A stretch of DNA of 42,417 bases from the IMG/VR virus record IMGVR_UViG_3300009320_000038, positions 1 to 42,417 of that record, one strand, 5' to 3'. The notes beneath the pieces were generated by a model that worked only from the letters and a program-made list of their open reading frames with translations, was not told where the DNA came from and searched no databases. The stretch is from a virus. How positions within the stretch are numbered: position 1 is the stretch's first letter; the number at the start of each line of letters is the position of its first letter. Below, one piece after another: positions 1 to 42,417 of this stretch. A program made the translations under genes and the position numbers.

Positions 1-119
1 GAATTACCCGACTTTGATTTCTTATGTGGAGGCTTCCCTTGCCAAGCGTTCTCTATTGCAGGAAAAAGACGAGGATTTGAAGACACTAGAGGAACTCTCT
101 TCTTTGATATCGCCAGAAT
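1..119. repeat. Terminal direct repeat, left copy (circularity overlap)
   Basis: These 119 bases recur exactly at 42299-42417, the very end of the window. Joining the two copies keeps the methyltransferase reading frame open across the seam. This is what an assembler leaves when it closes a circular or circularly permuted molecule. The unique genome is then 42,298 bp. Confidence 0.93.
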
Positions 120-7533: not shown

Positions 7534-8169
7534 TTATTTTTTAGTTAGTTTATCTTTTAAATTTTTTACTGCTCTCTTTACTTTTGTTCTTCCCCATTTT
7601 CTATTCTTTAATCTTTCAAGTTTCTTGTTTTGATTCTTATCTATCTTGGCTTTCTTTTGTGTTACCCCAGTTAATAACCTTACTTGCTCTTCCAATTCAT
7701 TTAACCTTCCGTCTGTTTGTTTGATATAATTATCATACTTTTCCATAGACTCTTTTGTTAATTGATTAAGACTTGTTAATGGGTCTACTCTCTTACCATT
7801 AAGATGAGACTCCCAATGAGTATGCCATGTTGATTCTGGTTTACGATAACCTGTTCTGCCTGTATGTGCAAACTCCTGACCTGCTTCAAGTTGTTGTCCA
7901 ACTTTCACAAGGATTCCTTTAGCACAATGACAGTATCTATCTTCTACGCCTGTTTCATATTTGATCCAGACTTCGTTACCATAGCCAGTCTTCTTATTTT
8001 CGTCATATTTATCTATGACTTTTGTTGGCGTACCTGCATGTAAAGTTTTCAAAGGACGTGGTCCATACGTTACTATATCTACTGCTTCATGTTTATTTCT
8101 ACCTTTAATATAACTTACTTTTGTATGAAACTTTTGAGTGATCTTTCCTTCTGTTGGTAGTAATAGCAT
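7534..8169 (-). CDS. M23-family peptidase, probable endolysin, 211 aa
   Basis: A LytM/M23 metallopeptidase domain occupies residues 1-130. The zinc motif HxxxD is His27-Asp31 (KHEAVD), His81 lies in YCHC, and HxH is His116/His118 (WHTHWE). These are the expected ligands and catalytic residues, so it should cleave peptide cross-links in peptidoglycan. The last 75 residues are helical then very basic (coiled coil, then Lys/Arg-rich), perhaps for wall or membrane binding. No signal peptide is visible. It lies next to two small membrane proteins, forming a lysis module. Confidence 0.85.
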   Translation of the reverse strand: MLLLPTEGKITQKFHTKVSYIKGRNKHEAVDIVTYGPRPLKTLHAGTPTKVIDKYDENKKTGYGNEVWIKYETGVEDRYCHCAKGILVKVGQQLEAGQEFAHTGRTGYRKPESTWHTHWESHLNGKRVDPLTSLNQLTKESMEKYDNYIKQTDGRLNELEEQVRLLTGVTQKKAKIDKNQNKKLERLKNRKWGRTKVKRAVKNLKDKLTKK

Positions 8170-8170
8170 A

Positions 8171-8413
8171 CTATTTATTAAATGTTAAAGGTGTGTCATG
8201 TATTTTTAATTGTTCTTCTATTCTAACAACTGCTTTACCTATTTCTACTTGTTCTGTTCTTATTTCTTTTATTTCTATTTTCATATCAGCTAACTGTACA
8301 TTTACAAACCAAGCATAGAATGCCATGACAGCAAAAAGAATAGGAGTTGTAATACTTATTACTGTTAGAAAGGTTGATCGTTTTAAGTTTCCATTCTTAT
8401 CTGTCATAAACAT
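8171..8413 (-). CDS. Small membrane protein with coiled coil, lysis module, 80 aa
   Basis: A short basic N-terminus, one transmembrane segment at about 15-38 (FLTVISITTPILFAVMAFYAWF) and a C-terminal coiled coil (MKIEIKEIRTEQVEIGKAVVRIEEQL). This topology fits a spanin-like or haemolysin XhlA-like lysis accessory. The first ATG overlaps the stop of the collar gene by one base; a second in-frame ATG lies two codons later. Adjacent to the M23 peptidase. The exact role is inferred from context. Confidence 0.65.
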   Translation of the reverse strand: MFMTDKNGNLKRSTFLTVISITTPILFAVMAFYAWFVNVQLADMKIEIKEIRTEQVEIGKAVVRIEEQLKIHDTPLTFNK

Positions 8414-11904: not shown

Positions 11905-12513
11905 TTAATATTCACCCATTCCCATATGTTTAGGTTTGAGCGGTTGAGCGTTAGCCATTAATTCTTCTTTAGCAACATTATAATAATACTGTGCTAATAA
12001 TCTCACATCATTTCTTGAGATATTTTGTAGTTTAGCAGAGTAAGTATTAAATTTAGTTAGTTCATTTACTATAGCCATCATTGCTTTATGTGCTGCATAA
12101 TTAAGAATTATGTCTTCAAACTCATCAGGTACATCTGTAATATTAGAATACTTTGTAGCTCCTTTAATTCTAAATATCAATCCAGTAGTTGAAGGTATAT
12201 GTTTGGGAGCTAATCTAAATTGATTAGTAAATATTCTAAACTCCCTAATCAAACTATAATTAGTAGATCCTGTACTATTTTGTATCCATATTTCAAAAGG
12301 ATAAAGAGTTATAGTATAAGTATCTTGATCTGCGACACTTGTTACTGATGTGTCTTCAACCTCAGTCCAAAGCTTAGGACGTTCTCCTCTACTACACCAG
12401 TTCACTGCTTGTTGTATATAAGTAGCTAACTCAGCTTCAGACCAAGTAAGATTACTTGTATCTTTAAGCTGTGTTTCTAAATTATCTCTTACTGTATTTA
12501 ATGTTAAGGCCAT
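11905..12513 (-). CDS. Head-tail adaptor-like protein, 202 aa
   Basis: The N-terminus (LNTVRDNLETQLKDTSNLTWSEAELATYIQQAVNWCS) matches the helical pattern of phage adaptor or tail-tubular-A proteins, which ring the portal. The middle is beta-rich, and a C-terminal helical bundle follows (DEFEDIILNYAAHKAMMAIVNELTKF). Size and position directly before the nozzle-like gene agree with T7 gp11 or P22 gp4-type adaptors. Confidence comes from pattern plus synteny. Confidence 0.65.
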   Translation of the reverse strand: MALTLNTVRDNLETQLKDTSNLTWSEAELATYIQQAVNWCSRGERPKLWTEVEDTSVTSVADQDTYTITLYPFEIWIQNSTGSTNYSLIREFRIFTNQFRLAPKHIPSTTGLIFRIKGATKYSNITDVPDEFEDIILNYAAHKAMMAIVNELTKFNTYSAKLQNISRNDVRLLAQYYYNVAKEELMANAQPLKPKHMGMGEY

Positions 12514-12529
12514 ATATTTATTTTATTAT

Positions 12530-15346
12530 TTAGGTTGTTTTGATATATTTTACAATCGCTTTCCAATTAATTGTAGTTGCGGCTACACCTGTTACTCTAA
12601 CGTCAATAGTTTGATTTCCTGCATCAGCGTTTAAAGTACAGTTCCATGCAACATTTGATTCTAGAGAAGTAATTACAGTAGTTGCTCCTTGCTGTGTTAC
12701 ATTACCCGCAGCATTACGATAAAAACATCCTTCTAAATGATATATAGCTCTATCAGTTCCATCAGATTTTCTGCCTAATACATAAGCCTCTACTTGAAAT
12801 ACATCACCTTCAGCAACATCAATAGTAGCTATATCAGTAATTGTTGCATCTGAAGTTTGTAAATAAGTATCTCTTTCTCCCTTTACTTCAATACCTACAA
12901 TTTCATTACCATTTTCTAAATCAAGATAACCTTCATTAGTATTATCCCAAGAACAAATATTAGTTCCTAAGTTAGTTGTTACTGTTCCACCATCTAAATT
13001 GCCTTTATAATTAGTACCTTGATTATCAATTAAGAAATCATCTGTAATAGTACCAGTTATATAAGGAAGGTTTACTTGCCCACCTGCTGCACCAGCATTA
13101 ACCGTAAATCCAGCCGCTTCATTATAAAATCTTAATGTATTACCTGTAGCACTATATTCATCTGATGTTATGCGGGAATCTGTATTCATTGTAATACCAC
13201 CAGTTGGGATCCTAGTAAATACAGTTTCATTCTGTAAGGCTATACTACCCGCAGATAATATTTCTATTTTCCCAGAGCTAGCACCATCTACTACACATCC
13301 ACGATTTAGTCTAATTGTAGCGTCTCTTCCTACTTCAGCAACTATACTTCCTGCACTACAAGTAAAATATGTAGCAAGACCACGATGCACACTATCAGGA
13401 CCAGCAGTAAGCTTAGTCCAGTTACAAGTACAATACCAATATGTTAATGCTGACATTGCTCCCTGAAACCATCCACCAGTAAAATTAATATTATAGAATC
13501 TCATTACACGAATACTATTTCTTCTGCCACCATCTATATCAATAGTTGAATCATTGCTTATAAGATCTACAGTGTCTGTTGCTATTGGATTAACCCAAGC
13601 ACCACTTGAATCTTCAGACGTACACCATATATCAGTAGCATCATTGTCATATATAACTCCATATTTACCATTCAAATTACCTGATGTAAACAAAACAGTT
13701 TTACCTATATGTTCACCAGGCGTCATTCCAGCGTCAACTGTCAACTGTAAACCATTATCTCTTGAAGAAGTATTAATACTAGAGATAGTCCAATTATTAT
13801 CTACTGATGTAGTTCCATAAAAATTAATACGAGCTTGTTTAAATCCTAAAGTATAATGATTATTCCAATTAAAAGTACCAGCACTTAAATAAATATTTCT
13901 TTGTTGTTCCATGTTAATAGGAACATCTCTAAAAGCTCTATCAATAGTTAAATAAGGATAAGCAGCCGTACCATTACCAGTCGTATCATTTCCTGCTGCA
14001 TCTACATAAAGATCTACTGCTGCCGTAGCTACATCGTTCCTTTCAATGTATCCCACTTCAGTATTATCATAGATAGTTACATTTCTAGAATCTTCAACAT
14101 AACTTTCTGATGTACCATTTACTGTACAAGCATTATCATTACCACCAGTAGATACAGTACCACCATCAAATGTCATCTCAATATTTTTACCCAAGAAATA
14201 TCCTAACCAACTGCCTGTAATATTTCCAGCTAAGTAAGGCAATTGAATAGTAATATCAGAAGTATCTGCTGGTGCTACAAAACCTGAAGAACAACTGTGA
14301 AAACGTAATGTTAAATTATCTGATGCAGAATTTTTATATACTCCATTAAATCCTTGTAATTGAATACCGTTAGCATCTAAATTTGAAAAGACTACATCAT
14401 GTCCAAGAGTTAAATAAGCTCCTGCGAACAATAATCCTTTTGTTCTTGCTTGTCCATCTACTACAGAGCCATAATCTAATTCAAATCTACATTGATCTCC
14501 AACTGTCATTACATTAGACAATGTATTATTTTCTGCAAGATAACAAGTCCAAAAAACTCCTCTAGTATAAGCACCTATGGCATTTTGTTCTATATTAAAA
14601 TTACAACGAACAGATCCAAAAGTAGAATAACCTACTCCAAAATAACCACCAGTAAAATTAAGATCTTGCATTATTAAATAATCAAACTGAACACCAATAC
14701 GATCAGGAGAAGTTACATTATTATCAATTGTTGAATCTAATGTATGAAAAGCAAACGTATCTGCTGGTGCTGGATTAACCCATGCGCCTGACTTAGCATT
14801 ACTAACATAAATAGTATCTGATGTATTTTCATAAATCACACCGTAAGTATTATTCAATGAACCAGAAGTAAATTTAATATGCTGACCAACCAAAGAATTT
14901 AAAGCCCATCCTGGATCTGGAGCAACGCTAAGTATTAATCCATTATCTCTTGAAGAGGTGTTAATACTAGAAATAGTATGTGCACTTCCTACAGATGTAG
15001 TTCCTTTTATATAATGACCATTACCTACAAAAGCATTCGTCCAATTACTTGGAAATGTAAAAGAACCAGCACCTAATTGAATTGTCCTTTGATATTCTGA
15101 TCTAATTGGTACATCTTTAAAAGCACGAGCAATGGTTGCATAAGGACTACCAACTGTTCCATCTCCAGTAACATCATTGCCAGCAAGATCCACATAAACA
15201 GTTACATTAGCAGCCTCCTTGTCCCAAACATCTTCAGTAATTTCATCCATTAAAGACTGCCCATCCTCACCATTAAGATACGAGTATATATCAGATGTAC
15301 CGTTTAAGTGTTTTAATCTTGATGGTGGGATATTAACATTGTCCAT
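12530..15346 (-). CDS. Tail spike with two tandem beta-helix modules, 938 aa
   Basis: A short N-terminal region is followed by two related modules at about 49-435 and 446-825. They start YVDLAGNDVTGDGTVGSPY and YVDAAGNDTTGNGTAAYPY and share TIARAFKDVP/TIDRAFRDVP and ISSINTSSRDNGL. These DUF1565/pectate-lyase-like parallel beta-helix features are typical of phage spikes. The last ~110 residues form a separate beta-sandwich-like domain (YLQTSDATITDIATIDVAEG..). The internal duplication is clear. The protein probably recognises or cuts a surface polysaccharide; catalytic residues cannot be assigned by eye. Confidence 0.78.
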   Translation of the reverse strand: MDNVNIPPSRLKHLNGTSDIYSYLNGEDGQSLMDEITEDVWDKEAANVTVYVDLAGNDVTGDGTVGSPYATIARAFKDVPIRSEYQRTIQLGAGSFTFPSNWTNAFVGNGHYIKGTTSVGSAHTISSINTSSRDNGLILSVAPDPGWALNSLVGQHIKFTSGSLNNTYGVIYENTSDTIYVSNAKSGAWVNPAPADTFAFHTLDSTIDNNVTSPDRIGVQFDYLIMQDLNFTGGYFGVGYSTFGSVRCNFNIEQNAIGAYTRGVFWTCYLAENNTLSNVMTVGDQCRFELDYGSVVDGQARTKGLLFAGAYLTLGHDVVFSNLDANGIQLQGFNGVYKNSASDNLTLRFHSCSSGFVAPADTSDITIQLPYLAGNITGSWLGYFLGKNIEMTFDGGTVSTGGNDNACTVNGTSESYVEDSRNVTIYDNTEVGYIERNDVATAAVDLYVDAAGNDTTGNGTAAYPYLTIDRAFRDVPINMEQQRNIYLSAGTFNWNNHYTLGFKQARINFYGTTSVDNNWTISSINTSSRDNGLQLTVDAGMTPGEHIGKTVLFTSGNLNGKYGVIYDNDATDIWCTSEDSSGAWVNPIATDTVDLISNDSTIDIDGGRRNSIRVMRFYNINFTGGWFQGAMSALTYWYCTCNWTKLTAGPDSVHRGLATYFTCSAGSIVAEVGRDATIRLNRGCVVDGASSGKIEILSAGSIALQNETVFTRIPTGGITMNTDSRITSDEYSATGNTLRFYNEAAGFTVNAGAAGGQVNLPYITGTITDDFLIDNQGTNYKGNLDGGTVTTNLGTNICSWDNTNEGYLDLENGNEIVGIEVKGERDTYLQTSDATITDIATIDVAEGDVFQVEAYVLGRKSDGTDRAIYHLEGCFYRNAAGNVTQQGATTVITSLESNVAWNCTLNADAGNQTIDVRVTGVAATTINWKAIVKYIKTT

Positions 15347-15347: not shown

Positions 15348-15812
15348 TTAAGATGCTGTTACAAAATAAGCTGTATCATCACCAGTATGAGTCAATCTAA
15401 TCTTAGCCATTCTAATTGAAGTCTGAGTAATAGTACCTCTAGCTGGTAATCTAATTGCTGTTTTATAAGCTACTCCATCAAAAGAATATTCTACATCAAT
15501 GGCTTCATCACCAGTATTAGCAATCATAAATCTTTTTGCTCTACTACCTAAATCAGTTGCTAAATCTAAAACTATAGGACTATCTCCTGCTTGAAAGGTA
15601 TTATCATTATAAGTTACACCATCAGTAGCAACGCTTGTATCTGTTGTATTAACTGAAATAACTCCATCAGCATCTACTTCAATAGCATAATATTCACCAT
15701 CATCAGGATTTAAACCATAAGCAACAACATCCTTGGCTCTTCCACCAACGTTGTGTTCTTCATTAGAACGCTTACTTGTTGTTTTAAAATCTTTTGGGTC
15801 TGCTTTACTCAT
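15348..15812 (-). CDS. Small beta-rich virion protein, 154 aa
   Basis: A charged N-terminal 30 residues precede repeated strands (EYYAIEVDADGVISVNTT, KRFMIANTGDEAIDVEYSFDG, RMAKIRLTHTGDDTAYFV). It lies between the spike gene and small late genes, and its start overlaps the previous stop (ATGA). It is likely a decoration, neck or spike-attachment protein. No family is recognised. Confidence 0.55.
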   Translation of the reverse strand: MSKADPKDFKTTSKRSNEEHNVGGRAKDVVAYGLNPDDGEYYAIEVDADGVISVNTTDTSVATDGVTYNDNTFQAGDSPIVLDLATDLGSRAKRFMIANTGDEAIDVEYSFDGVAYKTAIRLPARGTITQTSIRMAKIRLTHTGDDTAYFVTAS

Positions 15813-15967
15813 AATTTTCTAAGTGATTTTTTTAAATCTTTTAAAGCCGTATCAAATGGCTTCTCTAATTTAGGATCATACTTAATAAAAATTTCTCTTA
15901 ATACTTCTTCAGGCATTGAAGCCATCTCTTTGTCCTCATCATTTTTAATTACAATTTCTATTTTCAT
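15809..15967 (-). CDS. Small late protein, 52 aa
   Basis: ATG at 15967 overlaps the stop of the 143-aa gene (ATGA), and its own TGA overlaps the ATG of the 154-aa gene in the same way. This double coupling is good evidence of translation. The protein is charged and helical (MKIEIVIKNDEDKEMASMPEEVLREIFIKYD...). Function unknown; possibly a small assembly chaperone. Confidence 0.6.
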   Translation of the reverse strand: MKIEIVIKNDEDKEMASMPEEVLREIFIKYDPKLEKPFDTALKDLKKSLRKL

Positions 15968-16395
15968 TTCTTTAGAAACTTCTTGAAGAATGTTACTTCT
16001 TCTTTAGCTTGGCTTAATCTTATTAAAGCATATATCCTATCTAATCTTTGTAAGCTAGTCATACTATTACTTGTATTAGCTTCTTTCTCTAAATCTTTTA
16101 CTGTTGTTTTATAATCATTGTCATGCTCTTTAGCTTTCATTTCAATCCATTTGTCTATCTCAATTAATCTATCTCTGGCTTCTACTACTTGTGATCTATC
16201 TCCTGCTTGACCAAAGTCTTGATCGGAAAATAAAACTCCTAACTTCAAATGATTAGCAATCTCTGGTTCACCAAACTCATTATCAGATAAAGCATTAAAG
16301 CTTTCAGCAGGTGCACTAGGAGCTTTAGATGGAGTAGCTAATCTAATAGATCCACTATATCCCCCTAATACTTGGCTAGCAATTGATTCACTCAT
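15964..16395 (-). CDS. Late protein with helical C-terminus, 143 aa
   Basis: The N-terminal part is Ser/Ala/Pro-rich (GGYSGSIRLATPSKAPSAPAE). The C-terminal half is a predicted helical hairpin (VVEARDRLIEIDKWIEMKAKEHDND, RLDRIYALIRLSQAKEEV). It is coupled to the next gene by an ATGA overlap. Position between the glycan cassette and spike suggests a virion or assembly role. No family recognised. Confidence 0.5.
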   Translation of the reverse strand: MSESIASQVLGGYSGSIRLATPSKAPSAPAESFNALSDNEFGEPEIANHLKLGVLFSDQDFGQAGDRSQVVEARDRLIEIDKWIEMKAKEHDNDYKTTVKDLEKEANTSNSMTSLQRLDRIYALIRLSQAKEEVTFFKKFLKK

Positions 16396-16533: not shown

Positions 16534-17574
16534 TTATTTATTTAATTTATTAAAACTATCAAGAAAAAGCTTTTCCCAGGTAACAGCATTGTCTTCTGCA
16601 TTATATCTTTTCTTAACCCAGTTACAAGCTTGTTTTCCTATTCTACTTCTTAGCTTATTATCGTTAATTAATAGCGTCAAGTTTTCTTCCCAGTCTTTTG
16701 TATCATTACAAATGTATCCTGTGGTACCATGTTTAACCTCAAAATACGGACGCTTATTAGACACAATAGAAACTATACCTAAGGCAGAATACTCTTCCCA
16801 TTTAATAGAACTTTTATAATCATTAAACACTTCATCATTTAATGGAGCTATAGCTATATCAATACCTAACTTCTTGAGCTTATAAGGGTAGCGATTAAAC
16901 CTACAAAACTTAACAGTCTCACACTGAAAATCAAATGGAGAGGGGATACCAAACAATACAACTTCTATCTGTCCTTTATCTATAAACTTCTTTAAAACTG
17001 GTTCTATCATTTTAAGATCATGGTAATGAGATCCACCACCAGCAAACCCAACACATAGCTTATCTCTCTTTACTCCCTTAATCTTTTTAGCATCATCCCA
17101 TAATTCATAATCAATACTATTGGGAACATAATCAATCTTATGTTTGTTAGCTAAATTCAAAGAAGCAGCAGTCTTTACATCTGCTTGTTGTAAAAAATAT
17201 TTAATTAAACTTTGTGTACTAGGCAAAACAATTTGAGGAAATACAGGATTATGAGTTGGTATTACTTCAGCATCAAGAATGTCATCCATATCATAAGCAA
17301 GAACTTTCTTATGCTTCTTAGCAAATTCAACAATAGAAACATATATCCCTGGGTGATCCATATAATATCTTTGAAACCAAATCACATCAGCCCAAGCTAA
17401 ATCTTTAGGATGTATTTTTTTAGTTCCCTTAATTACTGGGATCTTTTGTGTAATTCTAATATTATGCCCTAGTTTTTTTAAATACTTACAAGGTATATGA
17501 GTCCTATACCAATAACACCCAGAGCTTATATCATTGGGAAAGACTAATATATTTAATTTCTTTTTTCCTGGCAT
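16534..17574 (-). CDS. Glycosyltransferase, GT-B fold (GT1/GT4-like), 346 aa
   Basis: The N-terminal Rossmann-like half begins LNILVFPNDISSGCYWYR, with a DMDDILDAE acidic segment near residue 96. The C-terminal half has CVGFAGGGSHYHDLK (about 175), IDIAIAPLNDEVFNDYKSSIKWEEYSALG (about 239-267) and VSNKRPYF, the usual donor-binding face of GT-B enzymes with the acidic residue in KWEEY. It is the last enzyme of the nine-gene cassette and overlaps the GT2 gene by 22 bases. The sugar donor cannot be read from the sequence. Confidence 0.82.
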   Translation of the reverse strand: MPGKKKLNILVFPNDISSGCYWYRTHIPCKYLKKLGHNIRITQKIPVIKGTKKIHPKDLAWADVIWFQRYYMDHPGIYVSIVEFAKKHKKVLAYDMDDILDAEVIPTHNPVFPQIVLPSTQSLIKYFLQQADVKTAASLNLANKHKIDYVPNSIDYELWDDAKKIKGVKRDKLCVGFAGGGSHYHDLKMIEPVLKKFIDKGQIEVVLFGIPSPFDFQCETVKFCRFNRYPYKLKKLGIDIAIAPLNDEVFNDYKSSIKWEEYSALGIVSIVSNKRPYFEVKHGTTGYICNDTKDWEENLTLLINDNKLRSRIGKQACNWVKKRYNAEDNAVTWEKLFLDSFNKLNK

Positions 17575-18317
17575 AATTTTTGTATTATATTTTTAAATTT
17601 ATCTAATACCAGTCCCTCGTTCTTATAGTATCTTTTTGTTTCCTTTCCTCCATAAGACCTAGAACCATAATGGTAGAACCAAGCATCTGATTGACATACA
17701 ACTTTATATCCAGCCTCCCATGTCCTTAAACACCAATCCACATCATCCCAACCAAATGGTTGATACACACTAAACCAACCCAAATCCTCCCATAAAGACT
17801 TTAATGTGGTCATTCCACATCCACTAACAGCATCACATGTATTAACTTTCCTTGAAGAATACCTCATGTTCTTACCTCTTTCTTTATGCTGAAGAAAGGG
17901 ATCTTTATCTGTATCTATATATTTCATTGAATGGTTGATAGTATTATCAACAAACAATGTCTTACATCCTACAGTCCCAACCTTGTGCTTTTTAAAAGCA
18001 TCTACAATTAGCTTCAGCCAACCATCTTGTTTAAAGAATACATCAGAATTCTGATATTGAACATACTTTCCCTTCGCTGCCTTTACTCCAGCATTCATTG
18101 ATACAGTTGAATTACCAGAGTGAGGAAGCTTAATTAGTTTTGTATATAAATGTTTTTTATCAAAAATTTTACTCATATCATCAGTAGATTCATCATCAAC
18201 TAATATAACTTCATATTCCACACCAGCATCAACAGCCCTCAAAGTTTCTAAAGCTTCTGTTAACATATCAGCATCATTGTATACTGGGAAGATTAAACTA
18301 ACAATTGGTTTTTTCAT
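17553..18317 (-). CDS. Family 2 glycosyltransferase (GT-A fold), 254 aa
   Basis: Typical GT2 start (PIVSLIFPVYNDADMLTEALETL), VILVDDESTD at about 38-47, AAKGKYVQYQNSDVFF as the nucleotide-sugar and metal-binding region (NSD in place of a classic DxD), and GWDDVDWCLRTWEAGYKV as the acceptor-side motif. The last resembles bacterial rhamnosyl-type transferases that extend O-antigen-like chains. It overlaps both neighbours (4 and 22 bases). It is one of four glycosyltransferases in the late cassette. Confidence 0.88.
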   Translation of the reverse strand: MKKPIVSLIFPVYNDADMLTEALETLRAVDAGVEYEVILVDDESTDDMSKIFDKKHLYTKLIKLPHSGNSTVSMNAGVKAAKGKYVQYQNSDVFFKQDGWLKLIVDAFKKHKVGTVGCKTLFVDNTINHSMKYIDTDKDPFLQHKERGKNMRYSSRKVNTCDAVSGCGMTTLKSLWEDLGWFSVYQPFGWDDVDWCLRTWEAGYKVVCQSDAWFYHYGSRSYGGKETKRYYKNEGLVLDKFKNIIQKLCQEKRN

Positions 18318-19402
18318 TGAGATTTTATTTTATTTATAATTGCATAATCATCTTTCTCACAAGTATCTACTAATAAATCTTTTAAGTAACCTAACTTTTT
18401 TAATTCCCCAGCTACACCATGATAATTAGAATTGATAGGAACTAAAGTAACTCCTCCTGTAGTTCCTAGATTTTCATTATGTATCCTATCTAAACCATGA
18501 CCATTGCTATAAAACAAATAATATTTAGTTTTACCATTATGATATCTAAGAGCTTGTCTTAAATTAAAACCTTCATTCTCATCTAGATATTTATCAGCAG
18601 TTTCTTGCCATCTGTCATCTCTATGTTTAAGTCTTAGTTCTTGAGTTACAAATGTTTGAGCATTAAAAGATAATACTGAATCAGCACCAACTAAATGACC
18701 AAACAAAATAGCAGCACAACCTCCAGCAGAGTCTCCTATAAAAACAGTATGCTTAGGTTTCTTTTCTTCAATAATCTTTTTTAATTCATTAGCAACCTTA
18801 CTAACTGTATTAACTTCTTTACTGATTCCTTTCTGATACCAAGCATGATATTGATCTTTAAGAAAAACTTTTTTAGCATTAAGATCCTTTAATATATTCC
18901 AGAAGTTAAATCTATTACCAAGGCCACCAAAGGACACCATCATATTGTCATGTTTTGAATCAATAGTAACTATTCCTATCCCTCTCTTTTCCATCTCAAC
19001 ATTAATATATAAACTCTTATAAGTTTCATATACTTTCTCATGGTGATAATGATCTACTGGACATCTTGGAATTAATTGATGATTAAATGTTTTATGATCT
19101 AAATGAACCTTAATAGCCACGTTTTTTTCTAAAGCTATTACTCTAATACATTTGTTAGCTAGCTTAGGATCAAACTTCTCATAATTTTCTATTGTCATAA
19201 TATCACCAGACTCTTGCCATTCATACATTAAATCTTCACGCAGGAAATGAACTAAATCATAATCATCTTTTATCTGGAAATATTCAGCTCTACTAGATTC
19301 AAAAACTACATCAATATCATATTCATGTAACTTTTCTTTTAAAGCTTTATGAATCCTATGATGTCTATCATTATAGTTTTTAACTACATGGAGAATTTTC
19401 AT
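18314..19402 (-). CDS. Unusual fusion: glycosyltransferase-like N-terminus plus alpha/beta-hydrolase, 362 aa
   Basis: Residues 1-130 resemble the first Rossmann domain of the neighbouring glycosyltransferase (MKILHVVKNYND.., DDYDLVHFLRED versus MKILHVVDKRDW.., DQYDLIHFIAWP), but no donor-binding half follows. Residues about 155-340 instead look like an alpha/beta hydrolase, with nucleophile elbow FIGDSAGGCAAILFG (Ser in GDSAG, about residue 225) and a candidate catalytic His in NSNYHGVAGE near 332. It might be an O-acyl esterase or transferase acting on the glycan. The combination is unfamiliar to me. Confidence 0.6.
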   Translation of the reverse strand: MKILHVVKNYNDRHHRIHKALKEKLHEYDIDVVFESSRAEYFQIKDDYDLVHFLREDLMYEWQESGDIMTIENYEKFDPKLANKCIRVIALEKNVAIKVHLDHKTFNHQLIPRCPVDHYHHEKVYETYKSLYINVEMEKRGIGIVTIDSKHDNMMVSFGGLGNRFNFWNILKDLNAKKVFLKDQYHAWYQKGISKEVNTVSKVANELKKIIEEKKPKHTVFIGDSAGGCAAILFGHLVGADSVLSFNAQTFVTQELRLKHRDDRWQETADKYLDENEGFNLRQALRYHNGKTKYYLFYSNGHGLDRIHNENLGTTGGVTLVPINSNYHGVAGELKKLGYLKDLLVDTCEKDDYAIINKIKSQ

Positions 19403-20022
19403 TTCTTTTTGAATACATGATAACCAAGAGCATAGTCAACTGTTTGCAATACTTCAAAGTTAGGAAGCTCTTTAGTAACTTCTTCTAACGTCCAGTTAGC
19501 AACAGAGTTAAACTCATCTGGTTCCTTGTGTTGTTTAGTTATTGGTAATTGAAAAATAAAAAGTCCTTCAGACTTTAATAGTCTGTCAGCTTCTTTAAAA
19601 TATTTCTTTATTGTATCTTCTTTACAATGTTGTAAAACAATAAAAGTAAAAAAGAAATCTATTGTTCCATCTTTAACAGTGATAGAATCATCTACAGTTA
19701 AACTCCATTCTATATTCTTAGCTTTAACTTTTTCTTTTCCTTTCTCAAGCATCGTCTTAGAACAATCTACTGCTATAACTTTATCAAAGCTTTCAGCTAA
19801 ATACTTAGTCATTCTTCCATTACCACAACCAAGTTCTAATAATGTTTTATTCTCTAATTCTTTTCTTTCAGTATGACTAATTAAAACCCTAAGAAATTCT
19901 CCTACTGTTAGGATACCAGATGTCTCATATAACTTATCACTATAATGCCAACCACTGGCAATGTATCTATCCTCATTTACATTAGCAGCTTCTTCCCATT
20001 GTTCTTGATGTGTCTTATTCAT
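19399..20022 (-). CDS. Class I SAM-dependent methyltransferase, 207 aa
   Basis: Motif I TLLELGCGNGRMTKYL at about 67-82, VIAVDCSKTML (motif II acidic region), DGTIDFFFTFIVLQH (motif IV) and LLKSEGLFIFQLP (motif VI) define a Rossmann methyltransferase of the type 11/25 kind. Four-base overlaps join it to both neighbours. With the glycosyltransferases around it, an O-methyltransferase acting on a sugar or capping a glycan chain is the most likely role. Confidence 0.85.
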   Translation of the reverse strand: MNKTHQEQWEEAANVNEDRYIASGWHYSDKLYETSGILTVGEFLRVLISHTERKELENKTLLELGCGNGRMTKYLAESFDKVIAVDCSKTMLEKGKEKVKAKNIEWSLTVDDSITVKDGTIDFFFTFIVLQHCKEDTIKKYFKEADRLLKSEGLFIFQLPITKQHKEPDEFNSVANWTLEEVTKELPNFEVLQTVDYALGYHVFKKK

Positions 20023-20522
20023 TTTTTTATTGCTATTAAATTATAATGTGATGGATTATTTTGTTTTTCTCCATCTACAACAAAATCATATTTACCCCAT
20101 AAAATAGGTTTTAAATGTGTTATTTCAAAACCAGCATCCTCCAATAATATCCTTATTCCTTGATCTGAAAATCTCCAATAATCAGCAGTATGATTATCCA
20201 TATGCCTAGCTTGACCCCAACAAGCATTAACAAATAACTTACCACCTGGTTTAAGAATACGATAAAACTCTTTCACTGCTAGCCAAGGATGATGTACATG
20301 TTCCAACAAAGCTATAGCAAGAACAACATCATACTCTCCACTATCACTAGGCATAGTACAGCAATCAGCAACTAAATCTACACCATCTCTATCAACTAAA
20401 TCACAAGTAGTGTAATCAAACTTTTCTCTATACTCTTCATGGAATCTATTACCAGTACCAATATTAATAACCTTAGCTTCCTTAGGTATGCTTTCTATAA
20501 ATTCAGTATAGTCTTCATTCAT
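20019..20522 (-). CDS. Class I SAM-dependent methyltransferase, 167 aa
   Basis: ATG at 20522 gives a short overlap with the preceding gene; an upstream ATG at 20576 would overlap by 62 bases. VINIGTGNRFHEEY is the SAM loop, TCDLVDRDGVDLVADC the acidic motif, and YDVVLAIALLEHVHHPWLAVKEFYRILKPGG a type 11 signature. The WGQARHMDNHTADYWRFS segment resembles enzymes found in bacterial polysaccharide clusters. It is slightly short for the family but has all the core motifs. Confidence 0.8.
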   Translation of the reverse strand: MNEDYTEFIESIPKEAKVINIGTGNRFHEEYREKFDYTTCDLVDRDGVDLVADCCTMPSDSGEYDVVLAIALLEHVHHPWLAVKEFYRILKPGGKLFVNACWGQARHMDNHTADYWRFSDQGIRILLEDAGFEITHLKPILWGKYDFVVDGEKQNNPSHYNLIAIKK

Positions 20523-21081
20523 TTTTAAACCCTCTCCCTTCCATCTTTTTAAATGCTGCGTAAGAACATTTCTCATCCTTAATTATTATCTTAATATCTG
20601 AGATGCCAAAATGTGTACGAGCCTTTACAATTTTTTGTACCATCTCAACTAACCCAGCATACTTAGGATATTCTTCCCAGAATCCAGCAACCCAATCTTC
20701 TATTACATACCAACCACCTGGGTTCACATACTTCCATAGATTCATAAAGGTATTGAATGTTTCTTTTCTTTCATGGCATCCATCATCAACAATAATATCA
20801 AGACTACCACCACATTTAAGAGCTACATCATTTAACCTTTCATTATTGTTTTGATTACCAACGAACAAACATATACCATCACCTAGCTTTTCTTTTGGTA
20901 AAACTATATCCATCCCATATATTTTTCCTTTAGTAAAGAAATCTTTAGCCCATAATAAAGAACCACCTTTATAAACTCCTACTTCTAAATAACTTAATGG
21001 TTCACTCTTAACGTCTTTAAATAATTCCTCATACTCTTCTAACAAACCATTCTCTAATTTATCTGTATCATAATCTTTCAT
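20515..21081 (-). CDS. SAM-dependent methyltransferase, CmcI/TylF-like, 188 aa
   Basis: YLEVGVYKGGSLLWAKDFF at about 31-49, IYGMDIVLP, LDIIVDDGCHERKETFNTF and NPGGWYVIEDW are characteristic of the cephalosporin-hydroxylase/TylF-type methyltransferases. Several members methylate sugar hydroxyls of natural products and surface glycans with divalent metal. The DDGCH motif carries likely metal ligands. It overlaps neighbours by 14 and 8 bases. Confidence 0.82.
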   Translation of the reverse strand: MKDYDTDKLENGLLEEYEELFKDVKSEPLSYLEVGVYKGGSLLWAKDFFTKGKIYGMDIVLPKEKLGDGICLFVGNQNNNERLNDVALKCGGSLDIIVDDGCHERKETFNTFMNLWKYVNPGGWYVIEDWVAGFWEEYPKYAGLVEMVQKIVKARTHFGISDIKIIIKDEKCSYAAFKKMEGRGFKNE

Positions 21082-21841
21082 ATAATTTTTTCCATTTATT
21101 AATTATAAAATCCCAAGACCTATCTTCTATTTGTGATCTTGTATTAAAAGTTTTAATCGCTTCAGCTATAGACTCTACATCACGATCAACTTTAATTATA
21201 CTCTTATCAAAGAAATCTCCCTCAGCAGTAGTAATGATTGGTTTGTTCATAGCCAAGCACTCAGCTATGACAGCAGAGTATCCTTCTTTTACAGAAGCTA
21301 AAATAACTACATCAACTTCCTTATAGAAATAAGGCATTTCATCTTTTACAAAATCAGTAGCAACTTTTAAATCTGACTTCGTATTCTTACAAGCATCCCT
21401 TACTAAATGAAAGCCTTTGTATTCATCTATAACTCCTACAAAACCTACAGTAAAATTTCTTGGTTTAAACAAACTAATATCAATCCCATCTGGAATATAA
21501 CTACACTTTAACTCTTGAGCAATCTTTCTACCAACAGCTATAGTTTCTATACATCTTTTCATGGCTTCTTGAATATCAAACCAGGGTTCTTTAATATCCC
21601 AGTTACGCCATGAACATACACTCATAATAGCTTTCTTTGGCTTCACATCCCACATAGTGATAAAAGGCCAAGCAATGAAATGAATCAGATCATATTGATC
21701 TTCCATGACTTCAAAGGCTTCTTTAGAAGACTCATGCCCATACAAAATTTCAAACTGATGTTCAGGTAAATGCTTAGCTATTTGTTTAGCTATGTCTTCT
21801 AAGATCCAATCCCTTTTATCTACTACATGGAGTATCTTCAT
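21068..21841 (-). CDS. Glycosyltransferase, GT4-like, compact, 257 aa
   Basis: MKILHVVDKRDWILEDIAKQ starts a reduced N-terminal domain. The C-terminal half has FTVGFVGVIDEYKGFHLV (about 130), DVVILASVKEGYSAVIAECLAMNKPII with the GT4 E-x7-E motif (about 185-210), and EGDFFDKSIIKVD. At 257 residues it is about 100 shorter than usual GT4 enzymes, mostly in the N-terminal acceptor domain. It lies between methyltransferase genes, overlapping them by 4 and 14 bases. Confidence 0.83.
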   Translation of the reverse strand: MKILHVVDKRDWILEDIAKQIAKHLPEHQFEILYGHESSKEAFEVMEDQYDLIHFIAWPFITMWDVKPKKAIMSVCSWRNWDIKEPWFDIQEAMKRCIETIAVGRKIAQELKCSYIPDGIDISLFKPRNFTVGFVGVIDEYKGFHLVRDACKNTKSDLKVATDFVKDEMPYFYKEVDVVILASVKEGYSAVIAECLAMNKPIITTAEGDFFDKSIIKVDRDVESIAEAIKTFNTRSQIEDRSWDFIINKWKKLYERL

Positions 21842-22452
21842 ACATTTCTTGCTATACCAATAAAGAATTTAGCATCCTTCTCATTAGATAATGATTGAAA
21901 GTCTAATCCATTTAATGACTGACCAGCCCAAGAAATATTATTATAATACTTACCAACCATTTCCATTGCTTCTTCTAAAGTAAAAGAATGTAAATGATAT
22001 TCATTATCTACTTTGTCATACCTAACATTAGGCACAGAAAATATAAACATATCAGTCTTATCAACTGTATCTTTAATAAAGTTTTCTGGATTTTCCAAAT
22101 GTTCTAGTGTCTCAAAAGAAACTATAACATCAAACTTCTTCTTACTTTTAGGAAGCGGCTTATTAAGATCAGTCTTCTTAAACTTGTTAGGACAATAATA
22201 AGCTAACTGTTTACAATACTCTATTGCTTCCTCATCAATCTCCCAACCTGTAAGATCTTCAGCAACATAGCTCATAAGACTCATACCATAGCCCGTACCA
22301 CAAGCTGCATCACATACCTTTTTCTTCTCTACATACTTCAAGATAAAATTATATCTTGCAATGTGTTCTCTCAACAATCCTATCTGGCCATTAACCTGAG
22401 TAGGAATAAGACGTTCATAAGTGTCTTTGACTTTCTTTACTCGTTTAAACAT
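21838..22452 (-). CDS. Class I SAM-dependent methyltransferase, 204 aa
   Basis: VCDAACGTGYGMSLM at about 46-60 is the SAM loop, TGWEIDEEAIEYC the acidic region, and FDVIVSFETLEHLENPENFI a type 11 motif IV. FIFSVPN and YHLHSFTLEEA follow, a combination frequent in polysaccharide-cluster methyltransferases. It overlaps the upstream glycosyltransferase by 16 bases. It probably methylates a sugar of the same glycan as its neighbours. Confidence 0.85.
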   Translation of the reverse strand: MFKRVKKVKDTYERLIPTQVNGQIGLLREHIARYNFILKYVEKKKVCDAACGTGYGMSLMSYVAEDLTGWEIDEEAIEYCKQLAYYCPNKFKKTDLNKPLPKSKKKFDVIVSFETLEHLENPENFIKDTVDKTDMFIFSVPNVRYDKVDNEYHLHSFTLEEAMEMVGKYYNNISWAGQSLNGLDFQSLSNEKDAKFFIGIARNV

Positions 22453-23363
22453 AATTTTTTATATAGTTTAATTTTCTTTCTAGCTGCTATGTCCCAGCTA
22501 TATTTATTATTTAAAAATTCCCTTAGCTCTGGAGTTGGATCAGTCATCAAAGCATCTGATATTGCTTTCGTTACACTATCCTTAGTGTTAGGATCACAAT
22601 AAAAAATATTTGGAACATTGTCTGGAGTATAAGTATTTTTGGTGCAAACAATATTACATCCAGCCATTCCACCTTCTAACAAAGTATTTGGGAAAGGATC
22701 TATTAACGATGGTTGTACTACTACCTTTGTTCTTTCATAAAGTTGTATTAAATCGTTCTGTTCCATTCTACCATGATATTCAAACTTATATTTTGTACAT
22801 CTCTGATAATATTGTTGGTCATGTTGTGTTCCAACAAAATGAGGAACGACTCCAATGTCTTCACATATCTCACAAACTAACTTCTGTTGTTTCCTTGGAT
22901 GAAAAGAACCAACACATAATACATCTATATCTCTTTTCTTATTCTCAGAATAAAATACTTTATCTACTCCATTGAAAATATTAAAAAACTTACTATCGTA
23001 ACTATCAGGTAAGCCCATTGCTTTTTTCATTCTGTCTCTTTCTTTATCTGAGAAAACAATAATAGCAGAAGCATAATCTACTATTTGTTTCACTTGATCC
23101 ATGTCTCCTACATCTTCAAAGAAGATAGAAGAAACAACTAGCTTCTTACTATGGATGCTAGCCTGTACATAGGTTTGATAAGCCCAAGGAAAGTTGATAC
23201 CAAATGTATGAATGATATCAAACTGTGAGAAATCTTCATTAAGCAAATAAGAAAAAACTACCTCATGTCCTAAAGCTTCTATATGCTTTTTGAAATTCAA
23301 CATTTTCAGCACATCTCCGCCTAGCCAAGCATCAGGATTCCTGTTCGTAAATAATATTTGCAT
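22437..23363 (-). CDS. Glycosyltransferase, GT4-like, first gene of the glycan cassette, 308 aa
   Basis: GT-B pattern. The N-terminal half has GGDVLKMLNFKKHIEALGHEV and DIIHTFGINFPW. At the domain join there is FFNIFNGVDKVFYSENK and VLCVGSFHPRKQQKLV, and the donor site is VVVQPSLIDPFPNTLLEGGMAGCNIV (about 215-240, PNTLLE being the E-x7-E equivalent). It begins 55 bases after the capsid stop codon, with a large hairpin in between. Late-strand position implies expression together with virion proteins. Confidence 0.85.
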   Translation of the reverse strand: MQILFTNRNPDAWLGGDVLKMLNFKKHIEALGHEVVFSYLLNEDFSQFDIIHTFGINFPWAYQTYVQASIHSKKLVVSSIFFEDVGDMDQVKQIVDYASAIIVFSDKERDRMKKAMGLPDSYDSKFFNIFNGVDKVFYSENKKRDIDVLCVGSFHPRKQQKLVCEICEDIGVVPHFVGTQHDQQYYQRCTKYKFEYHGRMEQNDLIQLYERTKVVVQPSLIDPFPNTLLEGGMAGCNIVCTKNTYTPDNVPNIFYCDPNTKDSVTKAISDALMTDPTPELREFLNNKYSWDIAARKKIKLYKKLCLNE

Positions 23364-23367: not shown

Positions 23368-23420
23368 TAATAGTCTAATTGCTTCGCCCCAAGAATGAGG
23401 CGAAACGTAACAGACTATTA
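23368..23420 (-). promoter_or_regulatory. Two-part hairpin between the capsid gene and the glycan cassette
   Basis: An outer 9-bp perfect stem (23368-23376 with 23412-23420) encloses an inner stem TTCGCC/GGCGAA (23383-23388 with 23399-23404). On the minus strand the inner stem extends by one G-U and one G-C pair. The capsid stop codon lies in the outer stem. No T-run follows, so a pure terminator is unlikely. A partial terminator, processing site or mRNA stabiliser that lowers cassette expression relative to capsid is plausible. Confidence 0.65.
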
Positions 23421-24380
23421 ATCTGTAACTGCTGTAGCGAAACAATCAAGTTCAACAACGTTTGCTTGCACTGCGTTAGAAGTACCGTAAGATACGCTAG
23501 TTGCAACACCCCATTGCTGTCCATAATCATATTCCTCTTCTGACCAGTCAGGCAGTTGAGAATAACCAGAAGCAAATGCTTCTCCACCAAATGCAATACT
23601 TCGTGTTTTGCTAGCGGCATAGTTAATGTTATGGGACTCTTTAACGATTACACCATTTAATACACCTAGAGCTCCAGTGAATAGAGGATTCATTTCACCG
23701 TCAGCACCAGCATATTTGTGTACATCAGACCAGTTTAAGTCAGCAGTATTTGTTTGTAAGTAATGAGCATCGTAAGGATGGATTACTATACAATACAATT
23801 GATAACCGTTACCTACTCTGATAGGTAATGCACGATTGAATGTTAATTGAGTATGAACTTTAGCTAATTCACTAGCATCTAGTTCATCACCAAGATTCAA
23901 TGTAGCATAGTTAGTTGCATCACCAGCAAATTGAGCCCATGTTCTTGCTGTAATGGCTTGAGCAAACATTAAGTTATCAAGTCTGTCAGCTAACCAATAA
24001 GCCAATCGGCCTTTGGCAGCATTACGGATATCAAAGTTTACTTTTTGTCTAGCATCTTTGTCTTCCGCTACACCATGTCTGTAACGACTAGGTGTGATTG
24101 TTAGTTGAGAAATTCTTAGTTTCTCTTCGTTACCCACTAAGGTATTAGATCCAATTTGACCAGCACCTGTTAGGTTAGAAAGCGTTTGAACGTGAATCTG
24201 ATCTCCAGGTTCTTTTGTCAAATCATCTTTACGGATGATAGGGGCACCAGACCCTTGAGGTCCTTCAAAATTGTGCCAGAACATCTGTTTCTCAGCTTCA
24301 ACGATAAGCTCTTTAGCCCAAATCTCTGGAATCGCTGAATCTAAATCAGTAGTGTTCGTAACGTTTAATGGATACGCCAT
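23418..24380 (-). CDS. Major capsid protein, N4-gp56-like family, 320 aa
   Basis: The start (TTDLDSAIPEIWAKELIVEAEKQMFW), the DDLTKEPGDQIHVQTLSNLTGAG segment, LVGNEEKLRISQLTITPSRYRHGVAEDKD and DIRNAAKGRLAYWLADRLDNLMF are the conserved blocks of the N4 gp56 HK97-fold capsid family. The length is normal. It follows the scaffold gene and shares its promoter at 25060-25089. The glycan cassette starts immediately downstream, making the capsid a candidate glycosylation target. Confidence 0.9.
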   Translation of the reverse strand: MAYPLNVTNTTDLDSAIPEIWAKELIVEAEKQMFWHNFEGPQGSGAPIIRKDDLTKEPGDQIHVQTLSNLTGAGQIGSNTLVGNEEKLRISQLTITPSRYRHGVAEDKDARQKVNFDIRNAAKGRLAYWLADRLDNLMFAQAITARTWAQFAGDATNYATLNLGDELDASELAKVHTQLTFNRALPIRVGNGYQLYCIVIHPYDAHYLQTNTADLNWSDVHKYAGADGEMNPLFTGALGVLNGVIVKESHNINYAASKTRSIAFGGEAFASGYSQLPDWSEEEYDYGQQWGVATSVSYGTSNAVQANVVELDCFATAVTD

Positions 24381-33742: not shown

Positions 33743-35611
33743 TTATTCTTCTTTAGGACCTGGCACTGGTTGTTGATAAGAACCACCTGCTGCTCCTGGT
33801 TGAGCCATTGGCTGTGGTACATTTTGCATATTAGGCGGAAGATTTGGAGCTTCACTTCCAGCGGCAGTTGGTTGTCCAGGAAGTGGTGCTGCACCTTCTT
33901 GCACTGGAGCTTTCATCTGTGCCAACTGTTGTTGAGTTTGACTGAATTGCATGTACGCTTGAAGTTTCTGCATAGCAATCTCAGGATTGTAGTAAGGATT
34001 ATTTTTCTCTCTAGCAATTTCAATTCTCTCATCTTGAGGAGAAGTAATGCCAAGTTTTTCCATTGCAGAATAATCACTCATCAAGCCAGCATTCTTTTGA
34101 TTAATTATATTTGTCATAAAGATTGATTCATCTCGTGGTGCTCTTTCACCCCACTCAAGTTTAACTTCGTAATGTCCTTGAACAATATCTTTTCCTCCGT
34201 CTTGGTGATTCTCAATCAAGACCATCATGTCTTTCCATTGCTTCCTGAATTGTGTTCCAAGATTATAACTCCAGCTCTGAATCTTTTTAATCGTAGATTG
34301 AAATGAAGTTGTAAGTGCTACACCAGTTGCAAGACTTGCATCAATCACTCCATACGCAATTGCTGGCATACCCATCACATCATCAAATGCTTTGTTCAAT
34401 AATCTGATATGTTCTGATACAGGATAAATTCTTCCAGACCATTCTAAAAATTTCATATCGCCACCTTCTTGGATCGGAATAATTTTTGGTCCTTGAGGAG
34501 ATCCTATAATATCATTTGGATCTTGTCCTGAGTTCATATCTAAAATCCAAGGTGAAGCATACATGTGAATTATATCTGCCTCATCTGAAAGTCGTTCATT
34601 AATTTCTTTTTGAATAGTTACTGCTGGTGCCATGAAAGAAGTTCCATATGGTTCGTTTGGCACTTCAATTGTCTTCGCATGATAAACAGGAAACGGATCT
34701 TTAATCTCTTCGTCTTTCACAACTATCTCACCAACCATTACAATGTTTCTACATTTTGGTTTTGTCATTCCCTTCTTATCAACTGAAGAAAGATCTTGCC
34801 AATAATCATAGACATTCACCATGTCTTGATCTGTTACAGGAACATGCTCACCATATTTTGGTTGCTCTGCTATTAAGTCATCCAACATTCCATCAACATT
34901 TAATCCGCCATCTTCAATCGGACGTTTTGCTGTTTCAAGATCAACTTGACTACAATTTATTACTCCAGCTAATTCTGAATATGAATCATCTTTAAACCAA
35001 GCTCGGACCTTATAAGGATCTAGTCTTCGGATTTTAATTCTATTAATTTGTGGATCCCAATACTGTTGCCAGAACGCATCACCAAAAATTGCTCCGTCTA
35101 ATGTGAAGTGTCTAGTTACAGTTTTAAAATCATTCTCCTCATACAAAACAATTCTCCCCATCTTTTCAATAATGTCTACTCGTTCAGCTTCGGGAGAATC
35201 TTTAATAGGATTTTGTGCCTGCTCTTCGTAGCTCTCAAGAGTATCACCCATTGTCTTTGGTTTGGGCACATGAAATTCTAATTGTTCAATAGATAAAAAT
35301 TGATGGAACTTCTCTGTGGCTGGTCCACATTTGTTATAAGTAATCTGAGCCATACCGTCTGGTCTTTCCCCAGCATATAACAAACCATAATCAGACCTGC
35401 TCCTAACGTAGGTATCAGATTGATCGTAAATTTGATTGCCCCATTGTTTCCCTTTGAAATAATTTTGGAGCATGCGGTAACGAACTAATCTGGACGCTGA
35501 ATCCGCATCATATTTTTTGAAGGTCTCTTGTACAAGTTCTCTGGCCTCTTTATTCTCTGGCGATTCACCTTTAACAAAAGACTTGAGTGATGAAAGCATT
35601 TCACTAGCCAT
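33743..35611 (-). CDS. Portal protein, 622 aa
   Basis: The N-terminus shows portal-type helices (RLVRYRMLQNYFKGKQW..IYDQSD, GMAQITYNKCGPATEKFHQFL), followed by a mixed wing region (RHFTLDGAIFGDAFWQQYWDPQINRIKIRRLDPYKV). The typical stem/crown segment is EVPNEPYGTSFMAPAVTIQKEINERLSDEADI. The C-terminus is Gln/Pro/Ala-rich and flexible. Its place directly after TerL and its length fit P22-type portals of short-tailed phages. It has a candidate promoter of its own. Confidence 0.82.
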   Translation of the reverse strand: MASEMLSSLKSFVKGESPENKEARELVQETFKKYDADSASRLVRYRMLQNYFKGKQWGNQIYDQSDTYVRSRSDYGLLYAGERPDGMAQITYNKCGPATEKFHQFLSIEQLEFHVPKPKTMGDTLESYEEQAQNPIKDSPEAERVDIIEKMGRIVLYEENDFKTVTRHFTLDGAIFGDAFWQQYWDPQINRIKIRRLDPYKVRAWFKDDSYSELAGVINCSQVDLETAKRPIEDGGLNVDGMLDDLIAEQPKYGEHVPVTDQDMVNVYDYWQDLSSVDKKGMTKPKCRNIVMVGEIVVKDEEIKDPFPVYHAKTIEVPNEPYGTSFMAPAVTIQKEINERLSDEADIIHMYASPWILDMNSGQDPNDIIGSPQGPKIIPIQEGGDMKFLEWSGRIYPVSEHIRLLNKAFDDVMGMPAIAYGVIDASLATGVALTTSFQSTIKKIQSWSYNLGTQFRKQWKDMMVLIENHQDGGKDIVQGHYEVKLEWGERAPRDESIFMTNIINQKNAGLMSDYSAMEKLGITSPQDERIEIAREKNNPYYNPEIAMQKLQAYMQFSQTQQQLAQMKAPVQEGAAPLPGQPTAAGSEAPNLPPNMQNVPQPMAQPGAAGGSYQQPVPGPKEE

Positions 35612-40743: not shown

Positions 40744-41019
40744 ATGACTAAACTATCAAACCAGAGACGTAACAATCTCATGGACGCAGACAAGAACCAG
40801 AAGAACAGAAAGGACTTTAAGATTGAGGACTTGCATGACCCAATCAAATGCTATAACTGTGGAGATGAGATTCAAATAGATAAAAAGTATTGGCAAGTAC
40901 CAGTAGTTGAGAGTCCGAAGGACACACCACATACAGTTCAGTTTTGTGAGGAATGTATTGGTACAGTAGACAAAGATATAATTGAGGACGTGGTTGATGA
41001 CTATTTTTTAGTGCATTGA
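40744..41019 (+). CDS. Zinc-ribbon-like protein, 91 aa
   Basis: The N-terminus is Asn/Lys/Arg-rich. Residues about 36-75 contain KCYNCGDEIQI and QFCEECIGTV, two CxxC knuckles typical of a small zinc ribbon, with strands between them. The acidic C-terminus is VDKDIIEDVVDDYF. Probably structural or nucleic-acid related. Function unknown. Confidence 0.6.
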   Translation: MTKLSNQRRNNLMDADKNQKNRKDFKIEDLHDPIKCYNCGDEIQIDKKYWQVPVVESPKDTPHTVQFCEECIGTVDKDIIEDVVDDYFLVH

Positions 41020-41048
41020 AAAACAAAACTAAACAAATAATAAAAACT

Positions 41049-42013: not shown

Positions 42014-42417
42014 ATGAAATATTTAAGTTTATTTTCTGGTATCGGAGGATTTGAACTAGGAATAGAACAAGTTTATGAAGATAATAAAATTAGGGAACAT
42101 TTATCCAAGCAAAGGACAGGCAGGAGTAGTAGTTCATCCGTTGGGGATAAGCCCAACGATAGCCTTCGGAAAAAGGGGGGGGCTAGCAAACATGCCGATT
42201 GTATTGGTTACTCCGAAATTGACAAGTACGCAGTCCAAGTCTACGAAAAACATTTTAACCACAAAAATTATGGAGACATCACAAAAATTAATGCAGAGGA
42301 ATTACCCGACTTTGATTTCTTATGTGGAGGCTTCCCTTGCCAAGCGTTCTCTATTGCAGGAAAAAGACGAGGATTTGAAGACACTAGAGGAACTCTCTTC
42401 TTTGATATCGCCAGAAT
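42014..42417 (+). CDS. C5-cytosine DNA methyltransferase, N-terminal part (continues at position 1)
   Basis: First 95 unique codons of the junction-spanning methyltransferase; the last 119 bases duplicate the window start. Motif I (SLFSGIGGFELG) is at residues 5-16 and the motif II/III region (CIGYSEIDKYAVQVYEKHF) at 62-80. Between them residues 22-60 form an extra, Ser/Lys-rich stretch encoded by visibly GC-richer DNA with an A5G8 run at about 42172-42182. The ATG at 42014 overlaps the stop of a three-codon ORF (42006-42017, ATGA overlap), suggesting coupled initiation. TATAAT at 41997-42002 lies only a few bases upstream. No SD is seen. Confidence 0.93.
   Translation, partial: MKYLSLFSGIGGFELGIEQVYEDNKIREHLSKQRTGRSSSSSVGDKPNDSLRKKGGASKHADCIGYSEIDKYAVQVYEKHFNHKNYGDITKINAEELPDFDFLCGGFPCQAFSIAGKRRGFEDTRGTLFFDIAR
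42299..42417. repeat. Terminal direct repeat, right copy
   Basis: Exact copy of positions 1-119, lying inside the methyltransferase gene and including its PCQ catalytic motif. A repeat of this kind inside an essential motif is much more likely an assembly overlap than a biological terminal redundancy. A short exact terminal repeat of the virion DNA cannot be fully excluded without read-end data. Confidence 0.9.

Follow-up and report, generated by a model that had tools for sequence, protein, structure and literature searches.

What are nine genes of apparent glycan chemistry doing between the capsid gene and the tail genes of a small, uncultured phage? The question is raised by positions 16534-23363 of IMG/VR virus record IMGVR_UViG_3300009320_000038, a segment that we refer to as the cassette; the window, i.e. 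the whole stretch of DNA that has been analysed, is the complete virus record of 42,417 bp. An earlier note on this DNA had proposed that the phage builds a methylated oligosaccharide on its own virion, and we consider a reading of this kind to be probable: its enzymes would build a methylated oligosaccharide on virions in the host cytoplasm, both target and product being what we infer. The evidence that carries this answer is comparative: differing sets of sugar-modifying genes recur at the capsid-tail junction of other phages, which suggests that such viruses cover their own virions with sugars.

The cassette consists of nine open reading frames (ORFs), all on the minus strand, which is the strand of the late genes; it starts 54 bp past the stop of the capsid gene (23418), ends 138 bp short of the next late gene (16395), and takes up 6.83 kb of 42.3 kb, or 16%. 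Its content is three GT-B glycosyltransferases (GTs) and one of family GT2, four class I methyltransferases, and one fusion of a GT-B N-terminal half with a hydrolase-like part. The features of the locus, from the capsid gene to the adaptor gene, are as follows:

23418..24380, minus strand: major capsid protein (MCP), matched to PHROG 334 (major head protein) at 1.7e-43; separated from the downstream cassette by 54 bp
22437..23363, minus strand: ORF9, GT-B (group 1) glycosyltransferase, 308 aa, Pfam PF00534, 1.2e-12; first gene after the capsid gene
21838..22452, minus strand: ORF8, class I S-adenosylmethionine (SAM) methyltransferase, 204 aa, Pfam Methyltransf_31, 2.6e-12
21068..21841, minus strand: ORF7, GT-B (group 1) glycosyltransferase, 257 aa, Pfam PF13692, 5e-10; EGYSAVIAE corresponds to the E-x7-E motif
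20515..21081, minus strand: ORF6, Methyltransf_24, probable sugar O-methyltransferase, 188 aa, PDB relatives 3SSM and 8IA9
20019..20576, minus strand: ORF5, class I SAM methyltransferase, 185 aa, Pfam Methyltransf_23, 1.3e-11; its start may be Met19
19399..20022, minus strand: ORF4, class I SAM methyltransferase, 207 aa, Pfam Methyltransf_11, 6e-19; LLELGCGNG motif
18314..19402, minus strand: ORF3, GT-B N-terminal-like half and hydrolase-like domain, 362 aa; a weak assignment
17553..18317, minus strand: ORF2, GT-A family 2 glycosyltransferase, 254 aa, Pfam PF00535 Glycos_transf_2, 5.6e-20
16534..17574, minus strand: ORF1, GT-B (GT4-type) glycosyltransferase, 346 aa, PHROG 7162, 1.2e-29; AlphaFold model
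15348..16395, minus strand: pair of small late genes, for proteins of 143 and 154 aa, lying between the cassette and the tailspike-like gene; no family recognised in Pfam/PHROG-type profile scans
12530..15346, minus strand: 938-aa tail protein, tailspike-like, PHROG 4577 tail protein, 5.7e-16
11905..12513, minus strand: head-tail adaptor, Pfam SU10_adaptor, 5.3e-6; bounds the variable capsid-adaptor gap on its downstream side

Most of what the earlier note had described is borne out: all nine genes are present on the late strand directly after the capsid gene, the figure of about 6.8 kb or one sixth of the genome agrees with the measured length, and the count of four glycosyltransferases (three GT-B, one GT2) and four class I methyltransferases is upheld by Pfam, PHROG and the model of ORF1. 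The overlaps, given there as 4-22 bases, measure 22, 4, 4, 4, 62, 14, 4 and 16 bp from ORF1 to ORF9, so that the range holds for most pairs but fails for one, unless ORF5 begins at its internal Met19, in which case 62 bp shrinks to 8 bp. The alpha/beta-hydrolase fusion (ORF3) is weakly supported: it has a GT-B-like N-terminus and a GDSAG elbow, but no Pfam or PHROG family match above cut-off.

A run of nine overlapping, functionally related genes is not due to chance. All nine proteins are free of membrane segments (top 19-residue hydropathy 1.55, versus 2.01 in the small membrane protein encoded at 8171-8413), and the cassette holds no genes for sugar-nucleotide synthesis; a flippase, a polymerase, a ligase and a membrane GT are likewise missing from it, and a self-sufficient O-antigen-type pathway is therefore absent. 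Promoter-like matches in the region are fewer than in shuffles and terminator-like matches do not coincide with the ends of the cassette, so that nothing leads us to posit a separate transcription unit.

The glycosyltransferases differ in how they are recognised. ORF7 and ORF9 belong to the GT4 (GT-B) glycosyltransferases by Pfam. ORF1 is weak in Pfam (GT group 1, 1.2e-3); its AlphaFold (AF2) model, built with 29 related phage proteins, reaches a pLDDT of 92.8 and finds BshA/PglA/MshA (GT4) as the best Foldseek matches in the PDB (E 2e-13, TM score about 0.7), with T4 alpha-glucosyltransferase far down the list, and on this model ORF1 has the GT-B fold, of GT4 type. ORF2 matches the GT2 domain of chondroitin synthase in the PDB (1.4e-11) and carries NSD and DDVD motifs. 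In ORF3, residues 1-96 are similar to the N-terminal region of ORF7 (BLASTP 9e-9), while the C-terminal part gives weak Lipase_3/UPF0227 matches (E 0.009 or worse) and resembles a protein of Synechococcus phage S-H9-2 (6e-7); AlphaFold without an alignment yields no usable fold (pLDDT 32), and it is plausible that this C-terminal region is a hydrolase. The nearest solved relatives of ORF6 are 3SSM (MycE, 1.4e-17) and 8IA9 (TylE, 1.3e-8), enzymes that methylate hydroxyls of macrolide sugars; ORF6 keeps the DDGxH and IED (VIED) motifs, aligned with the catalytic/metal motifs of both, and is a probable sugar O-methyltransferase.

The junction has been compared with that of phages sharing the capsid family, as the earlier note had suggested. 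An alignment of five capsid proteins led to 80 viral contigs of the same capsid family (27-38% identity), to which five annotated phage records were added; counting the window, 61 loci have the capsid gene and the adaptor gene (or the next tail gene) on one contig. Among the relatives the capsid-adaptor gap measures as little as 18 bp and at most 5.6 kb, versus 10.9 kb in the window, and in many relatives the flanking genes lie 18-700 bp apart, so that the cassette may rightly be called inserted in an evolutionary sense. In 19 of the 60 relatives the gap is occupied by between two and five genes that belong to glycan-type families, and glycan-type genes occur in 19 of the 24 relatives whose gap exceeds 2 kb; the families seen are a TPR protein, Methyltransf_23/_24, GT8-like, GT29-like, radical SAM/SPASM, sulfotransferases and APS kinase. 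Glycan-type families account for 66 genes in the gaps (132 kb) versus 2 in the remaining 690 kb, a count that, its families having been seeded from gap ORFs, measures the location of those families and not of all glycosyltransferases, and to that extent weighs against our reading. A second, independent set consists of 80 genome contigs, for the most part from Bartonella and further Alphaproteobacteria; its 72 closed gaps hold 4 glycan-type genes, with 0 outside, and most of these gaps are empty.

Cargo is present or absent at the junction, in differing gene sets, and along the MCP tree its state changes at least 10 times, at least 5 of the changes being forced by well supported branches. Almost none of the nine cassette proteins has a counterpart among the MCP relatives in phmmer searches, and we have rejected shared ancestry of the gap gene sets, since the cassettes are not orthologous; at the sensitivity used, the same site appears to have been filled separately in the window and in its relatives.

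Some relatives are of interest in their own right. The gap of one contig (L053:8197-11282) holds a methyltransferase, two sulfotransferases (PF13469), an APS kinase (PF01583) and a putative GT-A-like protein with no Pfam match, possibly a virion sulfation cassette, and another holds a GT29 (sialyltransferase)-like gene (L050:6734-7414, PF00777, 2.3e-5). TPR, methyltransferase and GT8-like genes follow the capsid gene in Vineibacter terrae CC-CFT640 (L107) and Reyranella sp. CPCC 100927 (L116), relatives in named bacterial strains that make the idea of a virion coat testable; in the TPR proteins of the relatives, the C-terminal half could not be recognised as a glycosyltransferase.

Similar arrangements occur in other phages. 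The 40-kb Manatee Spring podovirus MW202801 (ctQWt234) has six glycan-type genes between capsid and tail, in the order MCP, FeS oxidoreductase, GT, PhyH, methyltransferase, NodB, GT, tail. Relatives of ORF1 in viral contigs include those of two unrelated podoviruses with the order MCP, GT2, methyltransferase, GT, tail gene (L177, L178), two contigs with capsid, GT and adaptor (L194, L195), one with a five-gene GT/methyltransferase set ahead of portal and capsid (L176), and one with an MCP of the window's family and an ORF1-type GT 67 bp after the capsid gene (L201). The earlier note had judged the set unusual for a 42-kb phage; nine genes are indeed the largest set that we have met, but six in 40 kb (MW202801) and two to five in many relatives reduce the contrast. 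In a Mycobacteroides prophage, the terminase gene is immediately preceded by genes for a GT and for a Methyltransf_24 protein related to ORF6, along with a hypothetical gene (L091:4490-7298).

Under the virion reading, the nine genes would form a segment of the late operon, and their soluble products would act in the host cytoplasm during virion assembly, with host nucleotide sugars as substrates. One GT would place the first sugar on a virion protein, which may be the capsid protein, a small late protein or the tailspike; the other GTs would extend it to a short oligosaccharide; the methyltransferases, ORF6 most securely, would O-methylate and cap the sugars; and ORF3 may trim or acyl-modify the chain. 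The joint working of the enzymes, the virion target, the order of the steps and the benefit (shielding, adhesion or altered adsorption) are what we infer. The support that we list for this reading consists of the late-strand position directly after the capsid gene, the nine proteins free of membrane segments, the closeness of ORF6 to the MycE/TylE sugar O-methyltransferases with motifs kept, the counts in gaps versus elsewhere, the distinctness of the sets, the MCP tree, the parallels in unrelated podoviruses, and the mycobacteriophage and chlorovirus precedents described below.

Several observations weigh against it. The enzymes may instead alter host lipid-linked oligosaccharide, lipopolysaccharide or capsule just before lysis, blocking superinfection or keeping released virions off debris; as enzyme families, sets of GTs and O-methyltransferases resemble bacterial polysaccharide loci, and soluble cytoplasmic GTs can also work on lipid-linked intermediates and feed host lipid-linked glycans. 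The best evidence for such late modification of the host surface comes from the nearest MCP relatives (L011:5285-6340, L016:9508-10566), in which the same gap holds a membrane protein of several spans that bears a weak resemblance to O-antigen ligase (Wzy_C 5e-4, below cut-off), together with small proteins with signal-peptide-like starts, a content that points to the envelope. We nevertheless regard this rival as rather unlikely: the cassette lacks the membrane components listed above, the match of ORF2 to GtrB-like PHROGs is confined to residues 6-92, its N-terminal catalytic part, late expression leaves little time for a change of the cell surface, and the sets stand repeatedly beside capsid genes and almost nowhere else. 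The junction may also simply tolerate any cargo, being a site of strong late expression where the nine genes hit varied, unrelated targets; in keeping with this, some gaps hold non-glycan cargo, such as HNH endonucleases (L004), the secreted-looking small and membrane proteins of L011 and L016, and structural paralogues. The dominance of glycan-type genes in the long gaps, as coherent sets, and the compatible chemistry of nine overlapping genes make a mere cargo site less credible still, and we hold it to be improbable.

Also counting against the virion reading, 30 of the 46 ORF1-type loci are without a virion marker (the marker set being small), and in three contigs (L187, L214, L221) ORF1-type GTs adjoin DNA replication genes, as judged by the neighbouring ORF sequences, perhaps with a role in DNA modification. 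That the cassette enzymes themselves glycosylate and methylate phage DNA bases is very unlikely: phage GTs acting on DNA are known, according to work cited in PMC12619734, and T4 alpha-glucosyltransferase does appear among the distant Foldseek matches, but the cassette is late and capsid-adjacent, no base-hydroxylating or nucleotide-modifying gene has been recognised among the window ORFs scanned, and ORF6 is a relative of sugar O-methyltransferases. A host polysaccharide locus mis-assembled into the phage contig, the refuting option raised in the earlier note, is disfavoured to the point of being hardly credible. The GC content of the cassette is slightly below that of the other late genes (31.6 vs 35.6%), but its codon usage lies within their spread (GC3 0.217 vs 0.206), the same arrangement occurs in independent phages (MW202801, L177, L178 and others), and the record is complete: an exact 119-bp terminal repeat (window 1-119 = 42299-42417) and a DNA cytosine (C5-) methyltransferase gene (dcm), which is split by the record ends and reads through across the joint, indicate a closed genome of about 42.3 kb. 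Mis-assembly is unlikely because of these three lines taken together: the closed genome, the codon usage and the parallels.

The late genes of the minus strand comprise terminase, portal, large virion proteins, capsid, cassette, tail and lysis genes, with further tail and lysis genes beyond the adaptor. Those upstream of the capsid gene include:

35684-37279, minus strand: terminase, late gene
33743-35611, minus strand: portal, late gene; several large virion proteins lie between portal and capsid

A candidate lysis/peptidase pair lies on opposite strands, with an M23 peptidase at 7534-8169 on the late strand and an L-alanyl-D-glutamate-peptidase-like protein at 41016-41702 on the other; no tRNA genes have been found in the window. 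Scans with single proteins have returned no close relatives in viral contigs (MCP, TerL, ORF1) or genome contigs (ORF3), and the phage is thus without near kin in the contig sets scanned; the MCP relatives in bacterial genomes, mostly Alphaproteobacteria and some Selenomonadaceae, are at 26-33% identity too distant for host assignment.

Beyond the reading of the cassette as a virion-glycosylating set, we tentatively propose that in a broad group of podoviruses the capsid-adaptor junction is a dedicated, exchangeable locus of virion coat chemistry, where enzyme sets are swapped, methylating here and sulfating elsewhere; this is possible, at somewhat less than even chances. The sets would be GT with methyltransferase, GT8-like, sialyltransferase-like, radical SAM, and sulfotransferase with APS kinase, and related phages might then display differing glycans. 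The phage particle is commonly regarded as protein without further coating; if a whole group of short-tailed phages does swap its sugar coating at one site, the surface chemistry of the virion would be fast-evolving like tail fibres, with a bearing on adsorption, on environmental persistence and on recognition by cells or antibodies.

Among known systems, the virion reading may be set beside several. The MycE/TylE enzymes align with ORF6 over the catalytic domain and share DDGxH and IED with it, but have about 400 aa versus 188 aa. The O-antigen conversion of temperate phages by GtrABC needs membrane proteins, namely the flippase GtrA, the membrane GT GtrC, and GtrB with its C-terminal helices; it resembles the cassette in that phage glycosyltransferases alter a glycan, and differs in that the cassette proteins have no membrane segment, GtrA and GtrC have no equivalent, and ORF2 lacks C-terminal membrane helices. 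In mycobacteriophages, capsid and tail-tube proteins receive glycans from phage-encoded GTs, according to PMC12363180 and PMC11256854, which attribute virion glycosylation in Che8, Corndog and Myrna to Freeman et al. 2023. The likeness is that GTs of the phage have capsid and tail proteins as their actual or expected substrates, but there one or two GTs are named, in phages of Mycobacterium, whereas the podovirus-like window has four GTs, four methyltransferases and one fusion in a single capsid-tail block, with the virion as putative target. Chlorovirus PBCV-1 builds and O-methylates its own capsid glycan, with the enzymes A064R and A061L named in PMC9614988; like the window, it encodes GTs and sugar O-methyltransferases, there methyl-capping the glycan of the major capsid protein, and it is likened by function, being a eukaryotic algal virus with an N-linked glycan of proven chemistry, whereas that of the window is putative. 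Podovirus MW202801 shares the position of its six genes and an ORF1 homologue with the window, but has another MCP family (19% identity) and mostly other enzymes (FeS oxidoreductase, PhyH, NodB). In the open-access literature searched, subscription papers lying outside its scope, we have met no account of podoviruses with a site for glycan cargo between capsid and adaptor. Virion glycosylation by phage enzymes is already known, while the gene set of the window and its recurrent site, both recognised here at the level of genes, appear to be new.

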